From Oceanospirillaceae bacterium (lineage in GTDB: Bacteria; Pseudomonadota; Gammaproteobacteria; Pseudomonadales; Oceanobacteraceae), in assembly GCA_002706025.1 (NCBI GenBank), contig PAJK01000073.1:50973-107193 (forward strand): a stretch of DNA of 56,221 nucleotides, given 5' to 3'. Both the position numbers and the translations under genes were made by a program. A model generated the notes under the pieces. It searched no databases and was not told the DNA's origin. It saw only the letters and a list, made by a program, of their open reading frames with translations. This document shows positions 3,682 through 10,839 of the stretch, piece after piece; the first letter of the stretch is position 1, and each line of letters opens with the position of its first letter.

Positions 3682-4046
3682 ACAGACTCCGGTAATTATC
3701 GACTTCTAACAGTTCTGATAAGGCGTCGGCTACCGGAAAGCAGACATAAAATGTGTGTGCTTTCCGGTGGCAAAATACCCTCTACTACTATCGTAGCATC
3801 TACCATCCGGGGGAGGACTATGCGACCTAAGACTAGATTGCGGTCAGGGATTCTGCCGGTCTTGGCGGGAGGTGGCAAAGCATAGTGGCTCGAATTGATC
3901 AGAATTTAATCAGATTAGGTAGTAAACCCTACACCCATTATGTACTTGTACGCAAAGTTTTCATTCCCTACCCACCAGGACATATACACAAAGCCAGTGC
4001 GACAGCGCAGAATGCGGTAAACGCATTGTAAACCGGAGATTTCCCC
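3682..4046. promoter_or_regulatory. Divergent control region with 10-bp inverted repeat, between TRAP operon and aldehyde dehydrogenase
   Basis: 365-bp gene-free stretch. It holds a perfect inverted repeat accggaaagc (3732-3741) / gctttccggt (3759-3768) with a 17-nt spacer, in which a shorter acat/atgt pair also occurs. About 40 bp further lies a G-rich patch ccatccgggggagg (around 3803-3816). No convincing sigma-54 or sigma-70 hexamers could be assigned. It probably contains promoters for both flanking units and an operator for a shared regulator; this is inference from position and symmetry. Confidence 0.5.
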
Positions 4047-5546
4047 ATGACTCAGTACACCACGGCTGAATGGACGGCCAAAGCGGCACAGCTCACCATC
4101 CCGGCCCACGCCTGGGTAAACGGCAAGCCGGCTCAGGCTGTTGCCGGCGAGACTCAGCCATGTATGAATCCGGCCACCGGCGAGGTGCTGGCACAGATTC
4201 CTGACTGCAAACAGGCCGACGCTGATGAAACAGTGAAAATCGCCCGTGCAACATTCAATTCCGGTGTCTGGTCCCGAATGGCACCGATGGAGCGTAAGAA
4301 AATCATTGTGCGCTGGGCGCAGCTGATTGAAGACAACATCGATGAAATGGCTCTGCTGGAATGTCTGGATGTGGGCAAACCGATCAGTGATACCTACGGC
4401 ATCGACGTACCATCCGCGATCAACACTATCCGCTGGACCGGCGAAGCCATTGATAAAATCTACGGCGAAATCGCACCAACTGCTCCGGGCACTCTGGCGC
4501 TGATTCAGCGTCTGCCATTGGGTGTGGTGACGGCGATCGTGCCGTGGAACTTCCCGCTGTCCACCACCGCGTGGAAACTGGCGCCGGCACTGGCTGCGGG
4601 TAACTCGGTGATTCTGAAACCCGATCCGAAAACGCCACTGACCGCTATCCGTTTAGCCGAACTGGCAACTGAAGCCGGTCTGCCGGATGGCGTGCTGAAC
4701 GTCCTGCCGGGCGACGGTGTTAATCTGGGTAAACACCTGGCGCTGCACCCGGACATCGACGGCCAGACCTTCACCGGTTCCACTGCGGTGGGCAAGCTGC
4801 TGATGCAATACTCCGGTCAGAGCAACCTGAAGCGTACCTTCCTTGAGCTGGGCGGTAAGAGTGCCAACATCGTGTTCGCCGATGCTGATCTGGATACCGC
4901 TGCTATGTGGGCTGCGGTTGCCGGCTTCTATAACTGTGGCCAGACCTGCACCGCCGGTACCCGTCTGTTAGTACAGGACAGCATCTATGATGAATTCCTG
5001 CAGAAGGTGGTTGAGCATGCCAAAGCCTGGACGCCGGGCAACCCGCTGGACCCGGAAACCCGTATGGGTGCCGTTATCGACCAGAACCAGATCAACACCA
5101 TCCAGAAATACATTCAGATCGGTAAAGACTCCGGTGCCCGTCTGCTGACCGGTGGCGATGCCTTTAATGGTCTGGGCGGCGACCTTGGCGGTACCTTCCA
5201 TAGTGCAACACTGTTCGCCGATGTGGATAACAGCATGACCATCGCTCAGGAAGAAATCTTCGGCCCTGTGGTATCCGCCATCCGCTTTAAAGATGCAGAT
5301 GAAGCCATCCGCATCGCCAACGATTCCAGATACGGTCTCGCCGGTGGCGTCTGGAGCCGTGATATTTCCACCGCCTTAAAAGTGGCTGATGGTGTGCGCA
5401 CCGGTACCATGGGTGTGAACAACTACTTCGGTGGTGATATCACTGTGCCGTTCGGTGGCTTTGGTGAATCCGGTAATGGCCGCGATAAATCCCTGCACGC
5501 CATCGACGATTACACTGAGCTGAAAACCACCTGGATCGAATACTGA
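4047..5546 (+). CDS. puuC: Aldehyde dehydrogenase, PuuC-like (gamma-glutamyl-aminobutyraldehyde / aminoaldehyde DH)
   Basis: 499-residue cytoplasmic NAD(P)-dependent aldehyde dehydrogenase. Visible landmarks are PWNFPLSTTAWKLAPALAAGNS (cofactor-binding), FTGSTAVGK, the catalytic Glu in LELGGKSANIVFADAD, the catalytic Cys in FYNCGQTCTAGTRLL, and EEIFGPVV. The ending GGFGESGNGRDKSLHA and DYTELKTTWI resembles E. coli PuuC (which ends ...SGNGRDKSLHALEKFTELKTIWI), so oxidation of gamma-glutamyl-gamma-aminobutyraldehyde or a related aminoaldehyde is likely. The start has GGAG upstream. Its stop overlaps the next start (TGATG). Divergent from a TAXI TRAP system and 3.4 kb from patD, so an amine catabolism module is plausible. 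No other puu genes are present; the exact substrate is uncertain. Confidence 0.75.
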   Translation: MTQYTTAEWTAKAAQLTIPAHAWVNGKPAQAVAGETQPCMNPATGEVLAQIPDCKQADADETVKIARATFNSGVWSRMAPMERKKIIVRWAQLIEDNIDEMALLECLDVGKPISDTYGIDVPSAINTIRWTGEAIDKIYGEIAPTAPGTLALIQRLPLGVVTAIVPWNFPLSTTAWKLAPALAAGNSVILKPDPKTPLTAIRLAELATEAGLPDGVLNVLPGDGVNLGKHLALHPDIDGQTFTGSTAVGKLLMQYSGQSNLKRTFLELGGKSANIVFADADLDTAAMWAAVAGFYNCGQTCTAGTRLLVQDSIYDEFLQKVVEHAKAWTPGNPLDPETRMGAVIDQNQINTIQKYIQIGKDSGARLLTGGDAFNGLGGDLGGTFHSATLFADVDNSMTIAQEEIFGPVVSAIRFKDADEAIRIANDSRYGLAGGVWSRDISTALKVADGVRTGTMGVNNYFGGDITVPFGGFGESGNGRDKSLHAIDDYTELKTTWIEY

Positions 5547-6135
5547 TGAGCACGGCAGCGCTGGTACGGGCGGCTAACACCGCAGACATCGCTGCCGTCG
5601 CCGTTCTGTTTGATCAATACCGCTGCTTTTTTATCAGCAGCCATCCGATAAAGAAACCGCGCTGGCTTTTATCAACGCGCGTTTTAACCGCGCTGAATCC
5701 ATTATTCTGGTTGCCGAAAATAGCGCCGGCCAACTGCTTGGTTTCTGTCAGTTGTATCCCACCTTCTGTTCGGTCGCCGCGGCAAAAATTTTTGTTCTGT
5801 ACGATTTATTTGTCGCTGCAGACGGGCGGCGCAGTGGAACGGGAAAAGCGCTGTTAAAGGCTGCAGAGCACACTGCCCGTCAGCACGATGCGGTGAGAAT
5901 GGATCTGGCAACTGCGGTGGATAATATCGCAGCGCAGGCACTGTATGAGTCTCTGGGCTGGCAACGGGACCATGCCTTTTTATACCTACAGCCTGACGCT
6001 TTAAAACCGCACAAACATAGTAAAAAAACGGATACCCGTACAGGAAAGCCGCAGCAAATATGCACATTTGTTTCACACATTCTGCGCCATTTACTGAGCT
6101 TAAAAATTGAACAGTCATTTTTCTGTGACAAATAA
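5546..6135 (+). pseudogene. GNAT acetyltransferase gene split by a -1 frameshift at a T6 run
   Basis: The first frame starts with ATG at 5546, overlapping the aldehyde dehydrogenase stop, and encodes an N-terminal GNAT beta-strand (LVRAANTADIAAVAVLFDQY). At the T6 run 5627-5632 the homologous sequence moves to the -1 frame. There YQQPSDKETALAFINARFN leads into ENSAGQLLGFCQLYPTF, then FVLYDLFVAADGRRSGTGKA (acetyl-CoA loop) and ALYESLGWQRD. The rejoined protein would be about 196 residues, the last 45 or so looking like non-homologous read-through. One missing T explains everything. It could be a true pseudogene, slippage-dependent expression, or an assembly error. The original role, N-acetylation of a small amine or protein, would fit the neighbouring amine genes. 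Confidence 0.75.
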
Positions 6136-6200
6136 TGACAAAGCTCACTGTAAAGACATCTATAGCTGGGTTAGCCTCTTGTCTTAATAACTGTAACGCG

Positions 6201-6233
6201 TTTGTCTTACCCTCGATCAACCCATAAGACAAA
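6201..6233. promoter_or_regulatory. Inverted repeat TTTGTCTTA-N15-TAAGACAAA upstream of GNAT gene
   Basis: Perfect 9-bp arms at 6201-6209 and 6225-6233, plus a third direct copy ttgtctta at 6179-6186. They lie 26-80 bp upstream of the GNAT start at 6259. The arrangement looks like an operator array for a dimeric repressor. The regulator is unknown. Confidence 0.5.
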
Positions 6234-6258
6234 GCGGAAATAACCTGAGGAAAATGTT

Positions 6259-6771
6259 ATGACGCTGATTTTACGCTCGGCTGAAACGTCGGACCGTGAA
6301 GCGCTTAACTCTCTGAACGAGACAGCTGCGCCCCATGTGGACCGCTTAAACGAAGATCATTTCAGCTATCTGGTGGAACAGGGGCTGTGCATCGTAGCCG
6401 AAAACCCACTGGGTAAAATGGAAGGCTACATTATTCTGGTGCGCCACGATGAAAACTTCGAAGCCGAAGATTTCCGCTGGTTTCAGGAAAGCACCAACGA
6501 GCCATTTGTGTATATCGACCAGGTCGTGGTTGATCCGGAATACCGTGGCCGCGGCATCGCATCAGAGCTGTACCGTTGTGCAGAAAAATACGCTGCGCAA
6601 CTGGGTGCTGCTGCACTGACCTGTGAAATCCGTATGGACCCGCTGAACGAAGACTCCCATCACTTCCACCGCGAACACGATTTCGAAGAAATCGGCCGTC
6701 GTCGCAGCCAGGATCACGACGTGCTGCTGATGAAAAAAGCCGTCTGCGAAGAACCCTTCGTTCCTGCCTGA
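6259..6771 (+). CDS. GNAT-family N-acetyltransferase
   Basis: 170-residue soluble acetyltransferase of GCN5 fold transferring acetyl from acetyl-CoA to an unidentified amine. Strand beta-4 and motif A are clear: FVYIDQVVVDPEYRGRGIAS, where RGRGIA is the pyrophosphate-binding Q/R-x-x-G-x-G/A loop. The C-terminal segment FHREHDFEEIGRRR matches the usual FYxxxGF position. The N-terminus LILRSAETSDREAL is typical for the family. Start ATG at 6259 is preceded by gagg. It stands alone, following a frameshifted second GNAT gene and a strong inverted repeat likely to be its operator. Substrate unknown. Confidence 0.88.
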   Translation: MTLILRSAETSDREALNSLNETAAPHVDRLNEDHFSYLVEQGLCIVAENPLGKMEGYIILVRHDENFEAEDFRWFQESTNEPFVYIDQVVVDPEYRGRGIASELYRCAEKYAAQLGAAALTCEIRMDPLNEDSHHFHREHDFEEIGRRRSQDHDVLLMKKAVCEEPFVPA

Positions 6772-6781
6772 GTTATTACCG

Positions 6782-6808
6782 GCACCAGTGTCATTCCGGC
6801 ACTGGTGC
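6782..6808 (+). terminator. Hairpin downstream of GNAT gene (weak terminator candidate)
   Basis: Perfect 9-bp stem gcaccagtg/cactggtgc with a 9-nt loop, 11 nt after the stop codon. There is no T-tract, so termination efficiency is doubtful; it may be a 3' stabiliser. Confidence 0.45.
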
Positions 6809-6913
6809 ACACACCCGCCTAACCAACGCAGATTCTGATTGCAGTGGCTACAACCTCAGTGGCTTGAAAGGCAGTGTGTGCGATAATCACCGCATCTGAC
6901 TGCGGTGAGCCCC

Positions 6914-7813
6914 ATGGCCGACGACAAATCCTCCACCCTGTTAAAACGTGCTTTCTACCGTGCAGGGCCCGACCACCGGGCGCTGCTGGGTGGCGTTATT
7001 CCGGATTTTCTCACCATCCGCCAATGGTTCGATTTCCGCGGCGTGGAAATTGGCAAATGGGTCACCCAGGCCGAACAGGAACAGGCCGCAGCTCTGTTTT
7101 TTGATGCCTTAAGCGACCTCAGTGGCATTCTCGCCGGTACCTGGCTCAATGCCGAAGATAACCTGCTGCTGGGCCAGCAGATCATTTCCCTGCGCGGCAC
7201 CCTGGCGCTGCAATACGGTAAAGGCGGTCGTCCCGGAGTTTCTGCTCACTATTCACCACTGGAGCGCAGTTTCGCGCTGGCTAAAAATGCCGGACCCGGC
7301 AGTATCGCCCATGAGTGGTTCCACGCCTTTGATCACTATATCGCCGGCAAAGTCTTTGGTTCCGGCCATAAAAAGACCGCATTTGGTTCCCGCCTGTGGC
7401 TGGATAACAAACCTTTGCAGCCGCATCGGCTGAACAGCCTGCTGGCTCAGTGCTATGCCGCGGTACTGCTCGATCAGGAGGGCCGCGGCCCGAGTGATAT
7501 GTTCAGAGCGTCCGCGGCGCAGGATAAAAAACACGGCATGCTGTATTTCTCGCAACCGGAAGAAATGTGCGCCCGGGCGTTTGAAGCCTTTGTGCAGGAC
7601 GCCGGAATTAAAAATGCCTTTCTGGTAAAAGGTACGCAGAAATCGGAAGAAGCCAAACTCGGGCTGTACCCACAACAGCTGCAACGTGCACGTATTAATA
7701 TGGCCTTTCAGAATTATTTCTCGAAGCTGACAGCGGCTTTACTGCAGAATGCCAAACGCGAATACACCCTGACGGCTGACGATGATGGCGCCAGCAGCAA
7801 TAAAGAAGGCTGA
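6914..7813 (+). CDS. CLCA_X-like putative zinc metalloprotease (HExxH) coupled to FAN1 nuclease
   Basis: About 299 residues. An upstream in-frame GTG at 6905 is an alternative start. The central motif SIAHEWFHAFDHYIAG gives HExxHxxxH, a zinc metallopeptidase signature in which both His of HExxH bind zinc and Glu activates water. Upstream of it, LRGTLALQYGKGGRPGVSAHYSP resembles substrate-groove strands of HEWFHAFDHY-type domains found in large polyvalent proteins. A downstream YFSQPEEMCARAFEAFVQD segment supplies a conserved acidic helix after the active site. No signal peptide or membrane segment, so it is cytoplasmic. It ends 3 nt before the VRR-NUC nuclease gene, indicating translational coupling. 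I recall such proteins being named CLCA_X; biological function is undescribed to my knowledge. Protease activity is inferred from the motif. Confidence 0.7.
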   Translation: MADDKSSTLLKRAFYRAGPDHRALLGGVIPDFLTIRQWFDFRGVEIGKWVTQAEQEQAAALFFDALSDLSGILAGTWLNAEDNLLLGQQIISLRGTLALQYGKGGRPGVSAHYSPLERSFALAKNAGPGSIAHEWFHAFDHYIAGKVFGSGHKKTAFGSRLWLDNKPLQPHRLNSLLAQCYAAVLLDQEGRGPSDMFRASAAQDKKHGMLYFSQPEEMCARAFEAFVQDAGIKNAFLVKGTQKSEEAKLGLYPQQLQRARINMAFQNYFSKLTAALLQNAKREYTLTADDDGASSNKEG

Positions 7814-7816
7814 TGA

Positions 7817-9694
7817 ATGAATGCCGACAGCGTAAACAGCATCCGCCCGGCCGACGTTAACGACCCACTCTATTACCTTAAGAATTTCACCACCGCTCTG
7901 AACTGGGTACTGGCCCACAGCCGTGACCTGTTAAGCGCGGAGGAAAGTACCCGGCTGGATCGTTTTGCCACACTGTCGCAGGATGCTCAGGCGCTGCTGC
8001 TGCGTATGGTCATGCGCAAAGGCGAACTGTTTTTTCCCTCGGCCCTGATCTACAGCGAAATCAGCGATACAGAGCAGGCGGCCAGCGAGTTAGCACAACA
8101 GGCATTCTGTACTCTGGACCCGCTGTTAACGGCAGTCGAACTCACCGCCCTGCTGAAAAAAGATGAATTGCTGGCGCTGCTGCAACGGCATGCTCATAAG
8201 CCATTGCCGGACAATATCAAACGCTGGAAAAAAGCAGAGCTGGAGCAGCTTGTCAGTGAGCTGTTCGGTGACAGTGGCAGTGGCAGTGGCAGTGGCAGTG
8301 GCAGCAACAGTGACCATGACAGAACCCTGCGTCCGGCCAGCGAGTGGCTGGGCACTGAGGAGATGAACAGTAAGAAGACGAACGATAACGGGAGGAAAGA
8401 CAAGGCTCTGATACGCCTCGACGTTATGCCATTATTCGACACCATTCGCCTGCTGTTCTTTGGCAACGGCTGGCAGAACTGGAGTGAATTTGTGGTCACT
8501 GAACTTGGCCACCTGAGTTATGAAGCTGTGCCACTGGATCAGTCCAGCCGGCCGTTTCATCAACGCGCTGAACTGGATTTTTACCACCAGCTGGCTGATC
8601 TGCAGCAGCAGCTGTTTTTAATCACTGAGCAACTGAAATACAAACAGCTGTCATCCGATGAAGGTGCTGCCTTCATCGCTCAGTGCGCCCAGAGTTTAAT
8701 GACGCTGAAAAAAACGCCCGCAAACCATTTTGCTGAACTGCCACTCTGGTTACAGCAGCGCTGGCAAAAACTGATGGCACGCTGTGGACGCGAATGCGAA
8801 CGCTGTCAGAATCTGCCGCTGGCGCTGAGCTGCTATCAGTTAAGTGATCACCGCGAAGCCCGTGCCCGACGCCTGCGGGTGATGGAATTACAGGCCAGCA
8901 GCGACGATGACTACCGCCTTCTGGTGGCTGCAGCGGAGCAGCAGCTGACCCTTATTCAACAACCGGAAACACGTATAAGCATCCAGCGCATACGCCAGCG
9001 TGCCGCGAAAAAAGCAGGAATAAAACTGCCCGCCGATTCCTGTAAAGCGGATCTGCCCCGAGCCATTAATGCTTACCCATCGCTGCAGTTAACGCTGGCG
9101 GATAACGATGACCATGTTGAATATCAGGTGATGGACTATCTGAATCAGCAGCCGGGTGGGCAGTGCTTTTATGTGGAAAACACCCTGCTGCCCGGTCTGT
9201 TTTCCCTGCTGTTCTGGCCGGCGATTTACGCGCCGGTGAGCGGTGCGTTTTTTCATCCGTTTCAATCCGGCCCGGCCGATCTGTTCCGTGATTATTTTGC
9301 CCGCCTGCGCGAAGAAGAAATTAACGCTGCATTTCTGGCTCTGCAGGATGGCAGTTATGCCGATGTTATCCGTACACGCTTTACGCAGAAACAGGGCATC
9401 AGTTGCCCGCTCATTCACTGGGGCTGGCTCAGTGCTGACGTGGTGGAAAAAGCGCTGGCGGTTATTCCTGCAGCACAGCTGGAAGCCATCTTCCGCCATC
9501 TGCTGCGTGACCTGAAAAACCACGGCCGTGGTCTGCCTGATCTGATCTGGCTGGGCGATAAGCCCGGAGAATGGAAGCTGATTGAAGTGAAAGGTCCGGG
9601 GGACCGGCTGCAGGATCATCAGAAGCTATGGCTGGAGTTTTTCCTGCAGCAGGGGATAGACGCTGAAGTCTGCTACGTCGTGCGGCCGCAATAA
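7817..9694 (+). CDS. FAN1-like VRR-NUC domain nuclease
   Basis: 625 residues, bacterial homologue of the Fanconi-associated nuclease FAN1, a structure-specific 5' flap nuclease that unhooks DNA interstrand crosslinks. The C-terminal VRR-NUC domain shows a PD-(D/E)xK active site: D575 in GLPDLIWL and E590/K592 in KLIEVKGPGDR, followed by DHQKLWLEFF. The N-terminal half carries a SAP-like DNA-binding helix pair (ELLALLQRHAHKPLPDN, then KKAELEQLVSELFG). A central helical TPR-like part lies at about 250-420 with a four-Cys cluster (CGRECERC near residue 330). A Ser-Gly repeat tract interrupts the linker after the SAP-like part. Operonic with the metalloprotease-like gene and followed by a terminator. 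Confidence 0.88.
   Translation: MNADSVNSIRPADVNDPLYYLKNFTTALNWVLAHSRDLLSAEESTRLDRFATLSQDAQALLLRMVMRKGELFFPSALIYSEISDTEQAASELAQQAFCTLDPLLTAVELTALLKKDELLALLQRHAHKPLPDNIKRWKKAELEQLVSELFGDSGSGSGSGSGSNSDHDRTLRPASEWLGTEEMNSKKTNDNGRKDKALIRLDVMPLFDTIRLLFFGNGWQNWSEFVVTELGHLSYEAVPLDQSSRPFHQRAELDFYHQLADLQQQLFLITEQLKYKQLSSDEGAAFIAQCAQSLMTLKKTPANHFAELPLWLQQRWQKLMARCGRECERCQNLPLALSCYQLSDHREARARRLRVMELQASSDDDYRLLVAAAEQQLTLIQQPETRISIQRIRQRAAKKAGIKLPADSCKADLPRAINAYPSLQLTLADNDDHVEYQVMDYLNQQPGGQCFYVENTLLPGLFSLLFWPAIYAPVSGAFFHPFQSGPADLFRDYFARLREEEINAAFLALQDGSYADVIRTRFTQKQGISCPLIHWGWLSADVVEKALAVIPAAQLEAIFRHLLRDLKNHGRGLPDLIWLGDKPGEWKLIEVKGPGDRLQDHQKLWLEFFLQQGIDAEVCYVVRPQ
8270..8305 (+). repeat. Hexanucleotide microsatellite (GGCAGT)n inside FAN1-like gene
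   Basis: gacagt, then four perfect ggcagt units (8276-8299) and ggcagc, encoding an (SG)n linker at about residues 152-163. In-frame hexamer expansion or contraction would alter linker length without frameshift. Confidence 0.9.
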
Positions 9695-9718
9695 GCAGAC
9701 TTAATCAGCGGCCTCAAT

Positions 9719-9740
9719 AAGCGGCTTCAGTCAGCCGCTT
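9719..9740 (+). terminator. Intrinsic terminator after FAN1-like gene
   Basis: Stem aagcggct/agccgctt (8 bp), loop tcagtc, then tt. It overlaps the stop codon of the convergent hydrolase gene, so it may serve both strands. Confidence 0.65.
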
Positions 9741-10839
9741 TTGCCAGTTCGGTAAAATATTCCCCGGCCAGCTGATGCGCCCAGGGTTGAGCGGTTAAAC
9801 CTGAGAAATACGCACAGTGGCTGCCACGGCGGGTCACCGCCAGTATCGCCTGAGGCATTTCACGGATCTGTTCTTTGTATTCCCAGGCGTTATCGATATG
9901 GCACACCGGGTCGTCCTCAGCATTCAGAATCAGCACCGGCACGCGGATATTTTCAAACACGCGCATAGGATTCGCGGCATCCATAAATTCCTGCAGGCTG
10001 TTAAAACCGGCGCATTCATAAATATTCTGATGCAGCTCATGCAGGTTTTCCGATTCGATCAGGGTCTGATACGACGCCATGCCGGAAAAGGATTCGGGAT
10101 GGGAAAATACAAACTGCTTCAGCAGTTTCTTCGCCATCATGCGGCTGTAAACATCCTGCGCGCGGCCAAAGGCATGCTCGATGTTATAGCCCGGACAGTA
10201 AGCCATACCGCCACGGATTTTTGACTGCTCACCTTCTTCGCCCAGATAACGCACCAGCAGGCCAGAGCCCGCTGAAATCCCGATAGCGTACAGAGGTGAC
10301 TGCGGATAGCGTTCAGCGATAACGTCAATCTGTTCACGCAGATCGCCGCTGTCGCCCATGGTATTAAATTTAGCGACGGTTAATGGCAGATCGCCATGAC
10401 CACGACGCTGGCACAGGACGATGCGCCAGCCGGTCTGCTGATAAATATCGCGCATAAAGCCACGCATGCTGTGCGGTGAGCCGGTGATGGTATGCAGCAC
10501 CAGTAAGGTCGGCTTATCGTCCGCATTATCCAGCCCCAGCCAATGCAGTGCGGTGGTACCGCCATCGGCCATGGTCAGCTGTTCGGATTTTTCATAACTG
10601 AGCTTTTTACCCAGGCCTTTTTTGAAACCCAGCGCAATCAGCTGCGCATGGGTGTTAATCATCCATGGCGTAGGAAAATAACGCCGGGTCAGACGCGGTA
10701 AACGGCCGATCATATTACGGTTTTCATCGTTATTCTGATAAACCAGCTCGGGTTTAAGCGCCGCGGTACGCCAGTAATACACAGCAAACACCAGCAACAG
10801 AATAACGGCAGCGATCAGCCACAGCAGCAGCGAGGACAT
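9727..10839 (-). CDS. YheT-like alpha/beta hydrolase with N-terminal membrane anchor
   Basis: 370 residues. Residues 2-23 (SSLLLWLIAAVILLLVFAVYYW) form a membrane anchor, followed by an alpha/beta hydrolase fold. Oxyanion region LLVLHTITGSPHS, then RIVLCQRRGHGD, nucleophile elbow GISAGSGLLVRYLGE, acid in LILNAEDDPV and His in RRGSHCAYF. The layout matches the UPF0017/YheT esterase family, although the usual HGLTGS is HTITGS here. The start chosen is ATG at 10839, with GGAG 6 nt upstream; the open frame continues further upstream but without family-like residues. Probable carboxylesterase or lipase; substrate unknown. Faces the FAN1-like gene and diverges from cytochrome c'. Confidence 0.83.
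   Translation of the reverse strand: MSSLLLWLIAAVILLLVFAVYYWRTAALKPELVYQNNDENRNMIGRLPRLTRRYFPTPWMINTHAQLIALGFKKGLGKKLSYEKSEQLTMADGGTTALHWLGLDNADDKPTLLVLHTITGSPHSMRGFMRDIYQQTGWRIVLCQRRGHGDLPLTVAKFNTMGDSGDLREQIDVIAERYPQSPLYAIGISAGSGLLVRYLGEEGEQSKIRGGMAYCPGYNIEHAFGRAQDVYSRMMAKKLLKQFVFSHPESFSGMASYQTLIESENLHELHQNIYECAGFNSLQEFMDAANPMRVFENIRVPVLILNAEDDPVCHIDNAWEYKEQIREMPQAILAVTRRGSHCAYFSGLTAQPWAHQLAGEYFTELAKAAD

Follow-up and report, generated by a model that had tools for sequence, protein, structure and literature searches.

The window analysed here is a 56,221-nucleotide stretch of the genome of an Oceanospirillaceae bacterium (contig PAJK01000073.1, assembly GCA_002706025.1), and it contains a CLCA_X-family zincin gene followed on the same strand by a gene for a FAN1 nuclease. 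Our data suggest that CLCA_X acts as a zinc protease in the DNA-damage response, with clearing of DNA-bound protein as the likeliest mechanism, and we put this explanation as a whole at a little less than an even chance. CLCA_X probably has some role in the DNA-damage response, and the removal of crosslinked protein in particular is a possible, if doubtful, function. LexA-like boxes upstream of CLCA_X exceed chance in part of the family only, and the partners of the gene suggest that it works on DNA carrying proteins or crosslinks. After damage, CLCA_X would cut proteins stuck on DNA, either through a crosslink or through tight binding at stalled forks or breaks. A nuclease would then process the DNA; this would be FAN1 in the Thalassolituus subclade of the window, where CLCA_X may be co-translated with it, and an SbcCD/Mre11-Rad50-like complex in a Marinobacteraceae clade. 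We infer protease activity, a DNA-linked substrate and joint action with FAN1. The damage link is a property of part of the CLCA_X family, and because of homology and the FAN1 partner we would extend it to the box-less pair of the window.

LexA-like boxes and repair-gene partners of CLCA_X

The 220 nucleotides (nt) upstream of 176 distinct CLCA_X genes were scanned with a LexA-like 20-mer (maximum score 19.6), whose consensus and weights were our own, modelled on E. coli. A score of at least 16 was found for 44 of the 176 genes, of at least 17 for 40 and of at least 18 for 21; in 40 of these 44 genes the box is no more than 100 nt from the CLCA_X start. The E. coli recA box scores 18.2 on the same scale. 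At these three thresholds a random-window null gives 0.57, 0.48 and 0.31 expected genes, and a null built from 623 upstream regions that belong to other genes of the named loci gives 1.98, 1.70 and 1.13. Of the seven control hits at 16 or above, one belongs to imuA and four to genes of integron-integrase type. NCBIfam matches over cut-off confirmed imuA and one of the integrases, and the other three integrases were assigned by sequence likeness. The best score at the lexA promoters of 16 genomes, that of the window included, was 16.0–18.0 in 15 and 14.9 in one (G418). The consensus applies to these genomes because their lexA promoters carry the same type of box; lexA of the window genome has boxes of 17.0 and 16.0.

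The 44 boxes are not independent because box presence clusters by lineage. Boxes occur in 31 of 107 clusters at 90% identity, 17 of 62 at 80% and 5 of 23 at 70%. On a tree of 174 of the 176 sequences (two were dropped by length), the box-bearing parts are a large, mostly Marinobacteraceae clade, five further Marinobacteraceae genes with Mangrovitalea, Saccharospirillum, the genus of G475 and G526, and a sister Thalassolituus clade with a weaker palindrome (16.1). Twenty enlarged loci were chosen for having a box. CLCA_X was tagged in 19 of them; the called gene upstream runs in the same direction in 15, so that the box there serves CLCA_X, and is divergent in the other 4. Two genomes, G006 and G007, have a second CLCA_X copy (loci L177 and L178) that is 45–46% identical to that of the window and has no box; on the tree this copy groups inside the box-bearing Marinobacteraceae branch.

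In six Marinobacteraceae loci (L266, L267, L269, L271, L272 and L273) a LexA-like box is followed by CLCA_X, near 6000–6800 of each locus, and then by genes for an SbcD/Mre11-like phosphoesterase and an SbcC/Rad50-like ATPase. The gap from CLCA_X to the SbcD-like gene is 38–39 nt in all six. This order is a candidate SOS-controlled protease–nuclease operon. Family models were run on one representative of each protein. The SbcD-like protein matched PF00149 at 45 bits, over cut-off, and TIGR00619 at 54.9 bits, below the cut-off of 77.65; the SbcC-like protein matched AAA_15 and SMC_N over the Pfam cut-offs and fell short of the NCBIfam cut-offs for the Rad50 and SMC models. By these matches both appear to be distant members of their families. 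In a further locus (L270), two genes judged by eye to be of polyhydroxyalkanoate-metabolism type stand between CLCA_X and the SbcD/SbcC-like genes. SbcCD is described in PMC6265447 as cutting DNA beside protein blocks and removing covalently bound topoisomerases.

A second kind of repair partner is found in Saccharospirillum (L082), where CLCA_X is divergent from imuA (NF033429, 182 bits, cut-off 150) and an ImuB-like gene, both on the minus strand at 3826–5893 of the locus. A near-perfect LexA-like box is common to these genes and CLCA_X.

No conserved neighbour of CLCA_X was found in the 69 of the 80 named loci where the gene caller kept the gene. In the other 11 it was lost by the caller, probably to a larger overlapping false open reading frame (ORF), and these loci were covered by tblastn. 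In 23 Marinobacteraceae loci (e.g. L043, L057, L064 and L194) CLCA_X is preceded on its own strand by nrdB, and by nrdA too where that gene is in reach. The gap from nrdB to CLCA_X ranges from 11 nt to more than 4 kb, and some of the 23 loci are the same genome twice. The nrdAB link was set aside as evidence of damage control, the best LexA score at nrdA being 13.7 in the 12 readable of the 23 loci. In five Marinobacter loci (L034, L043, L049, L054 and L044) the next called gene after CLCA_X is of integron-integrase type, located at about 6780–7740 on the minus strand in the first four; in four of the five this gene has a LexA-like box of its own, and one was confirmed by NCBIfam.

The CLCA_X protein and its FAN1 partner in the window

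The CLCA_X gene occupies 6914–7813 of the plus strand and encodes 299 amino acids from an ATG; a GTG at 6905 is an alternative start that would give 302 amino acids with the same end at 7813. The protein is a full member of its family, matching NF041907 over residues 14–276 at 335 bits against a cut-off of 260. The initial annotation had picked out HEWFHAFDHY as a zinc-protease motif and had named variation of the HExxH residues across the family as a result that would speak against its proposal. The motif is encoded at 7310–7339 (residues 133–142), and H133, E134, H137 and D140, the predicted HExxHxxD zinc site, are invariant in all 81 aligned sequences (the window and the 80 named loci) and also in two phage homologues. 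These phage homologues, at 28–31% identity, keep H133, E134, H137, D140, E217, R221 and E224. An LPD1 match (PF18796, 98 bits) covers residues 204–275, encoded at 7523–7738 of the plus strand, and includes E217 (7562–7564), which is invariant in 61 sequences, the two phage homologues among them.

The AlphaFold2 model of CLCA_X has a predicted local distance difference test score of 91.5 and a predicted template modelling score of 0.90. It places HExxH on a helix of residues 131–147 and E217 on a helix of residues 215–228. Such a placement is usual for a zincin with glutamate as the third ligand. We propose from the model that E217 may be the third zinc ligand of CLCA_X, and LPD1 seems to form the C-terminal half of the zincin instead of being a domain of its own. 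The best structural matches in VIA-align were zincins, with the catalytic domain of anthrax lethal factor at the top (Z 8.8, root mean square deviation 4.3 over 196 residues, 11% identity) and then PPEP-2 (Z 7.7) and PPEP-1 (Z 7.2). These matches would indicate likeness of fold and not of function. Judged by its predicted fold and active site, CLCA_X is most likely a cytoplasmic zinc endopeptidase. We agree with the initial annotation that neither this protein nor its partner has a signal peptide, a judgement made by eye.

The initial annotation had placed CLCA_X beside the SprT/SPRTN proteases. Kinship with them did not emerge from Pfam, and membership of CLCA_X in the SprT/SPRTN, Wss1 or IrrE families was rejected on zero Pfam matches at E up to 1. 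In the window genome the SprT-like family PF10263 gave only weak matches, of 31.5 and 26.7 bits against a cut-off of 25.6, possibly to other M48-like proteins.

PPEP-1 is a sequence-specific protease, and its place among the structural matches would suit a different role for CLCA_X. The protein may be a regulatory protease like PprI/IrrE of Deinococcus, cutting one specific protein such as a repressor or a cell-cycle protein. The LexA-like boxes of part of the family are consistent with such a role, as is a protein of one catalytic domain in which no DNA-binding module was recognised, and PprI/IrrE itself is a precedent for a metallopeptidase acting in this way, as PMC10904395 describes. On the other side, no conserved repressor or other candidate substrate gene was seen among the examined neighbours, and the Pfam scan at E up to 1 gave no IrrE/ImmA/DUF955-type match. 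We regard a regulatory protease as clearly unlikely.

The FAN1 gene follows at 7817–9694 of the plus strand and encodes 625 amino acids. Its FAN1 helix-turn-helix (HTH) domain (PF21315, 96 bits) covers residues 18–97, encoded at 7868–8107, and its VRR-NUC domain (PF08774, 103 bits) residues 511–622, encoded at 9347–9682. The complete VRR-NUC PD-(D/E)xK site reported by the initial annotation was recovered: the catalytic string LPDLI...LIEVKGPGDRLQ, with its tail reading EVKGPGDRLQ, is intact, and the protein aligns with its nearest solved structures, 4r89 and 5y7g, at E ~1e-86. We take both of these to be P. aeruginosa FAN1. FAN1 is a 5'-flap/crosslink nuclease. A GTGGCA repeat of about six copies within the gene (window 8268–8304) encodes a Gly-Ser linker and may be a length-variable tract. 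Among FAN1 genes elsewhere, two have strong LexA-like boxes (L127, 18.3; L107, 17.3), unlike the other 54.

The stop codon of CLCA_X (TGA, 7811–7813) and the ATG of FAN1 (7817–7819) are 3 nt apart, as the initial annotation had it. A ribosome-binding-site-like AAGAAGG for FAN1 lies at 7803–7809 of the plus strand, within the 3' end of CLCA_X and 7 nt before the ATG at 7817. Neither a LexA-box-like site nor a sigma-70-like promoter match was found in the intergenic region ahead of the pair (6772–6913, plus strand), and a sigma-70 pattern scan of 6700–9900 gave no promoter-like site. The examined genes flanking the pair are of ordinary metabolism and transport; a TRAP transporter, an aldehyde dehydrogenase and a GNAT acetyltransferase are encoded upstream, and an alpha/beta hydrolase, cytochrome c', cytochrome b561 and a NUDIX protein downstream.

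How often CLCA_X and FAN1 adjoin or co-occur

The two genes are adjacent in 5 of 104 genomes that have both. These 104 comprise 16 of the window's family (f1), 11 of a Halomonadaceae-like family (that of G418, which contains Vreelandella, since G528 and the genome of L093 give one and the same FAN1 hit; f24), 76 Marinobacteraceae and one genome of the class sample (G401), all read by eye from coordinates. Four of the five adjacencies fall in one Thalassolituus subclade and the fifth in another family. The initial annotation had named restriction of the adjacency to this lineage as a result that would speak against its proposal; apart from this fifth genome, that is what was found. Among 55 relatives, CLCA_X was present in 24, FAN1 in 23 and both in 16. 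Adjacency in f1 is limited to four genomes (the window's own, G000, with G001, G005 and G006), and FAN1 lies elsewhere in the other 12 of the 16 with both genes. Other CLCA_X genomes of the same genus, four in number, have a different neighbourhood and no FAN1 match. Of the 80 named loci, with a flank of up to 6 kb (14 loci are shorter than 12 kb overall), only L027 and L028, corresponding to G001 and G006, have FAN1 in the vicinity of CLCA_X. Both genes occur in 11 of 121 genomes of the Halomonadaceae-like family, adjacent in 1, and in 76 of 131 Marinobacteraceae genomes, where none are closer than about 15 kb.

The four genomes of the subclade, which is Thalassolituus by its named members, also have the downstream hydrolase and cytochromes in common. 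Their junctions differ, with a 20-nt overlap in G001, a 4-nt ATGA overlap in G005 and G006 and the 3-nt gap in the window. Because all four pairs consist of overlapping or almost touching genes, the coupling has been maintained within the subclade, and it is more than chance there. In the fifth genome (G475) the two genes stand tail to tail, 15 nt apart. We count this as a second, separate adjacency because its proteins share only 53% and 38% identity with those of the window. Its congener G526 has the same flanks with CLCA_X directly before the next gene and no FAN1 match in the genome, and the FAN1 of G475 occupies exactly the junction of CLCA_X with this next gene.

These data also bear on the possibility of a lineage accident, in which the two genes came to adjoin once in Thalassolituus and once elsewhere tail to tail and would have transcription but no pathway in common. 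The rarity of the pairing is what such an accident predicts: adjacency in only 5 of 104 genomes with four in one subclade, only two of the 80 named loci with FAN1 near CLCA_X, FAN1 elsewhere in 12 of the 16 f1 genomes, and a negative lineage control in f24. The near contact of the genes in all four Thalassolituus pairs and the exact position of FAN1 in G475 argue the other way. Two separate adjacencies also compare with about 0.06 expected for 104 independent pairs (P of 2 or more ~0.0015), a comparison that is suggestive only, the genomes being related. Weighing both sides, we place a lineage accident on the unlikely side, and the gene pair alone is weak evidence for joint function.

Genome-wide co-occurrence, which the initial annotation had suggested as a check, gave no usable support for a link between CLCA_X and FAN1. 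In the class sample FAN1 is present in 20 of 369 genomes overall and in all three whose CLCA_X match is over cut-off; it is also present in 42 of the 50 named CLCA_X genomes (50 of the 80 loci given). FAN1 was present in 16 of 24 f1 genomes with CLCA_X and 0 of 10 without it, and in 76 of 82 Marinobacteraceae with it and 32 of 49 without it. The relation is reversed in the Halomonadaceae-like family, where FAN1 is present in 11 of 16 genomes with CLCA_X and 94 of 105 without it. Elsewhere in the order FAN1 occurs in 7 of 21 genomes and CLCA_X in none of them. These counts were made by eye and ignore phylogeny; CLCA_X matches below cut-off (three Halomonadaceae-like genomes and one Marinobacteraceae genome) were taken as absent, and G481 was counted as positive despite one internal stop. 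With a positive relation in two families and a reversed one in the third, co-occurrence follows lineage and was rejected as evidence of linkage. One genome has two partial CLCA_X matches that overlap (G583:C1:472490-473235), possibly a broken copy.

Several results weigh against CLCA_X as a DNA-damage protease that acts with nucleases, the reversal in the Halomonadaceae-like family among them. Boxes are missing from 132 of the 176 CLCA_X genes, and their distribution by lineage is marked, with 16 Fitch parsimony changes against about 39 for shuffled labels. The window pair reaches a best LexA score of only 12.6 of 19.6 within 250 nt upstream, and CTGTN8ACAG is absent throughout the window; the other three Thalassolituus pairs (G001, G005 and G006) also have no LexA-like box upstream. 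FAN1 promoters have such a box in only 2 of 56 loci. The SbcD-like and SbcC-like proteins remain below the NCBIfam cut-offs, the six loci that carry them are close relatives and amount to about one event, and CLCA_X neighbourhoods are otherwise variable. For the protein itself, Foldseek against the PDB gave no match for the CLCA_X model at E 0.001 or better; Wss1 (E 1.3), PprI (E 1.5) and ArdC (also only above E 1) appeared at E values too high to weigh either way. The VIA-align Z values are middling by the tool's own scale, and lethal factor and PPEP-type proteases are secreted. The Pfam and NCBIfam scans recognised no DNA-binding domain in CLCA_X, and Pfam at E up to 1 gave neither an SprT-like (PF10263) nor a WLM (Wss1) match.

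The initial annotation had proposed a bacterial operon joining protein- and DNA-crosslink removal. The proposal is partly supported: the genes are coupled, and LexA-like boxes and repair-gene partners elsewhere in the CLCA_X family favour an HExxH protease in DNA-damage handling. The pairing with FAN1 is rare, and crosslink removal itself would be one possible function.

Phage relatives and comparison with known systems

Stretches homologous to CLCA_X were found within ORFs of 2132–3948 amino acids in viral contigs and two bacterial genomes, and further homologues occur in phage records, some annotated as LPD5 or DdrB-like. CLCA_X genes are also located on Vibrio and Marinobacter plasmids, where they have unrelated neighbours (four records). 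Because the viral homologues sit inside very long ORFs, which is consistent with PMC3650047 and PMC5512222, it is plausible that CLCA_X was domesticated from phage polyvalent proteins, and this is probably its origin. The stand-alone gene could then be a remnant of conflict between mobile elements and their hosts, kept as a weapon or counter-defence and induced by the SOS response like many prophage genes. The long phage ORFs, the plasmid copies and the patchy occurrence in the Halomonadaceae-like family (16 of 121 genomes over cut-off) all agree with such a remnant. So does the role proposed for polyvalent metallopeptidases in PMC5512222, that of processing or attacking proteins during invasion. 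The window and the inspected loci look by eye like ordinary chromosome, CLCA_X is common in Marinobacteraceae (82 of 131 genomes), and the partners found are repair genes, all of which count against a conflict remnant and leave it improbable.

CLCA_X as a DNA-damage-response protease would have wider meaning. To our knowledge, no dedicated SOS-controlled protease for DNA-stuck proteins has been established in gammaproteobacteria. Should the LexA boxes and the repair-gene orders be taken at face value, an as yet uncharacterised family of zincins would gain a role in DNA-damage-induced proteolysis paired with nucleases, of which Marinobacter, Mangrovitalea, Saccharospirillum and Thalassolituus, marine genera not known to be harmful, carry the clearest versions. 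The large phage polyvalent proteins of the CLCA_X family would thereby gain a functional lead. In its most extended form, which we consider speculative and somewhat doubtful, CLCA_X would be a new class of bacterial DNA-damage protease, unrelated in sequence to SprT/SPRTN and derived from phage polyvalent proteins. It would be controlled by LexA in part of the marine gammaproteobacteria and paired by lineage with FAN1 or Mre11/Rad50-like SbcDC as protein-clearing modules, with LPD1 as the half of the protease supplying the third zinc ligand.

The CLCA_X family itself is already known; its LexA-like boxes and repair-gene orders were observed in the present analysis. CLCA_X was described as a zincin family in 2013 (Lenart et al., PMC3650047). 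A term search of the main text of that paper gave no occurrence of VRR, nuclease or operon, and the literature searched, of which most subscription papers were outside the scope, named CLCA_X in only two papers and showed no report of a CLCA_X–FAN1 pairing, an SOS link or repair partners.

Among known systems, PprI/IrrE of Deinococcus resembles CLCA_X as a metallopeptidase in the DNA-damage response. PprI cuts the repressor DdrO, according to PMC10904395; CLCA_X differs in having no sequence match to it and no repressor-like partner gene in view. SPRTN/SprT and Wss1, which are crosslink proteases, are like CLCA_X by analogy, as HExxH zincins associated with DNA-damage genes. CLCA_X differs from them in the lack of an SprT-like or WLM Pfam match and in its best fold matches, which are lethal-factor and PPEP-type zincins. 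With the CLCA_X family as described in PMC3650047 and in NF041907, the window protein has in common HExxH with a downstream Asp, and phage and plasmid homologues. It also resembles the polyvalent-protein zincin MPTase with LPD1 (Iyer et al. 2017, PMC5512222) in the Asp three residues after HExxH and in the LPD1 match; the same family is found in very long phage ORFs, whereas the CLCA_X of the window is a stand-alone chromosomal gene. The window FAN1 has in common with the bacterial FAN1 of 4r89 and 5y7g the HTH and VRR-NUC domains, an intact catalytic string and alignment along the protein, and it differs from them by the mid-protein Gly-Ser repeat linker and by its probable co-translation with CLCA_X.

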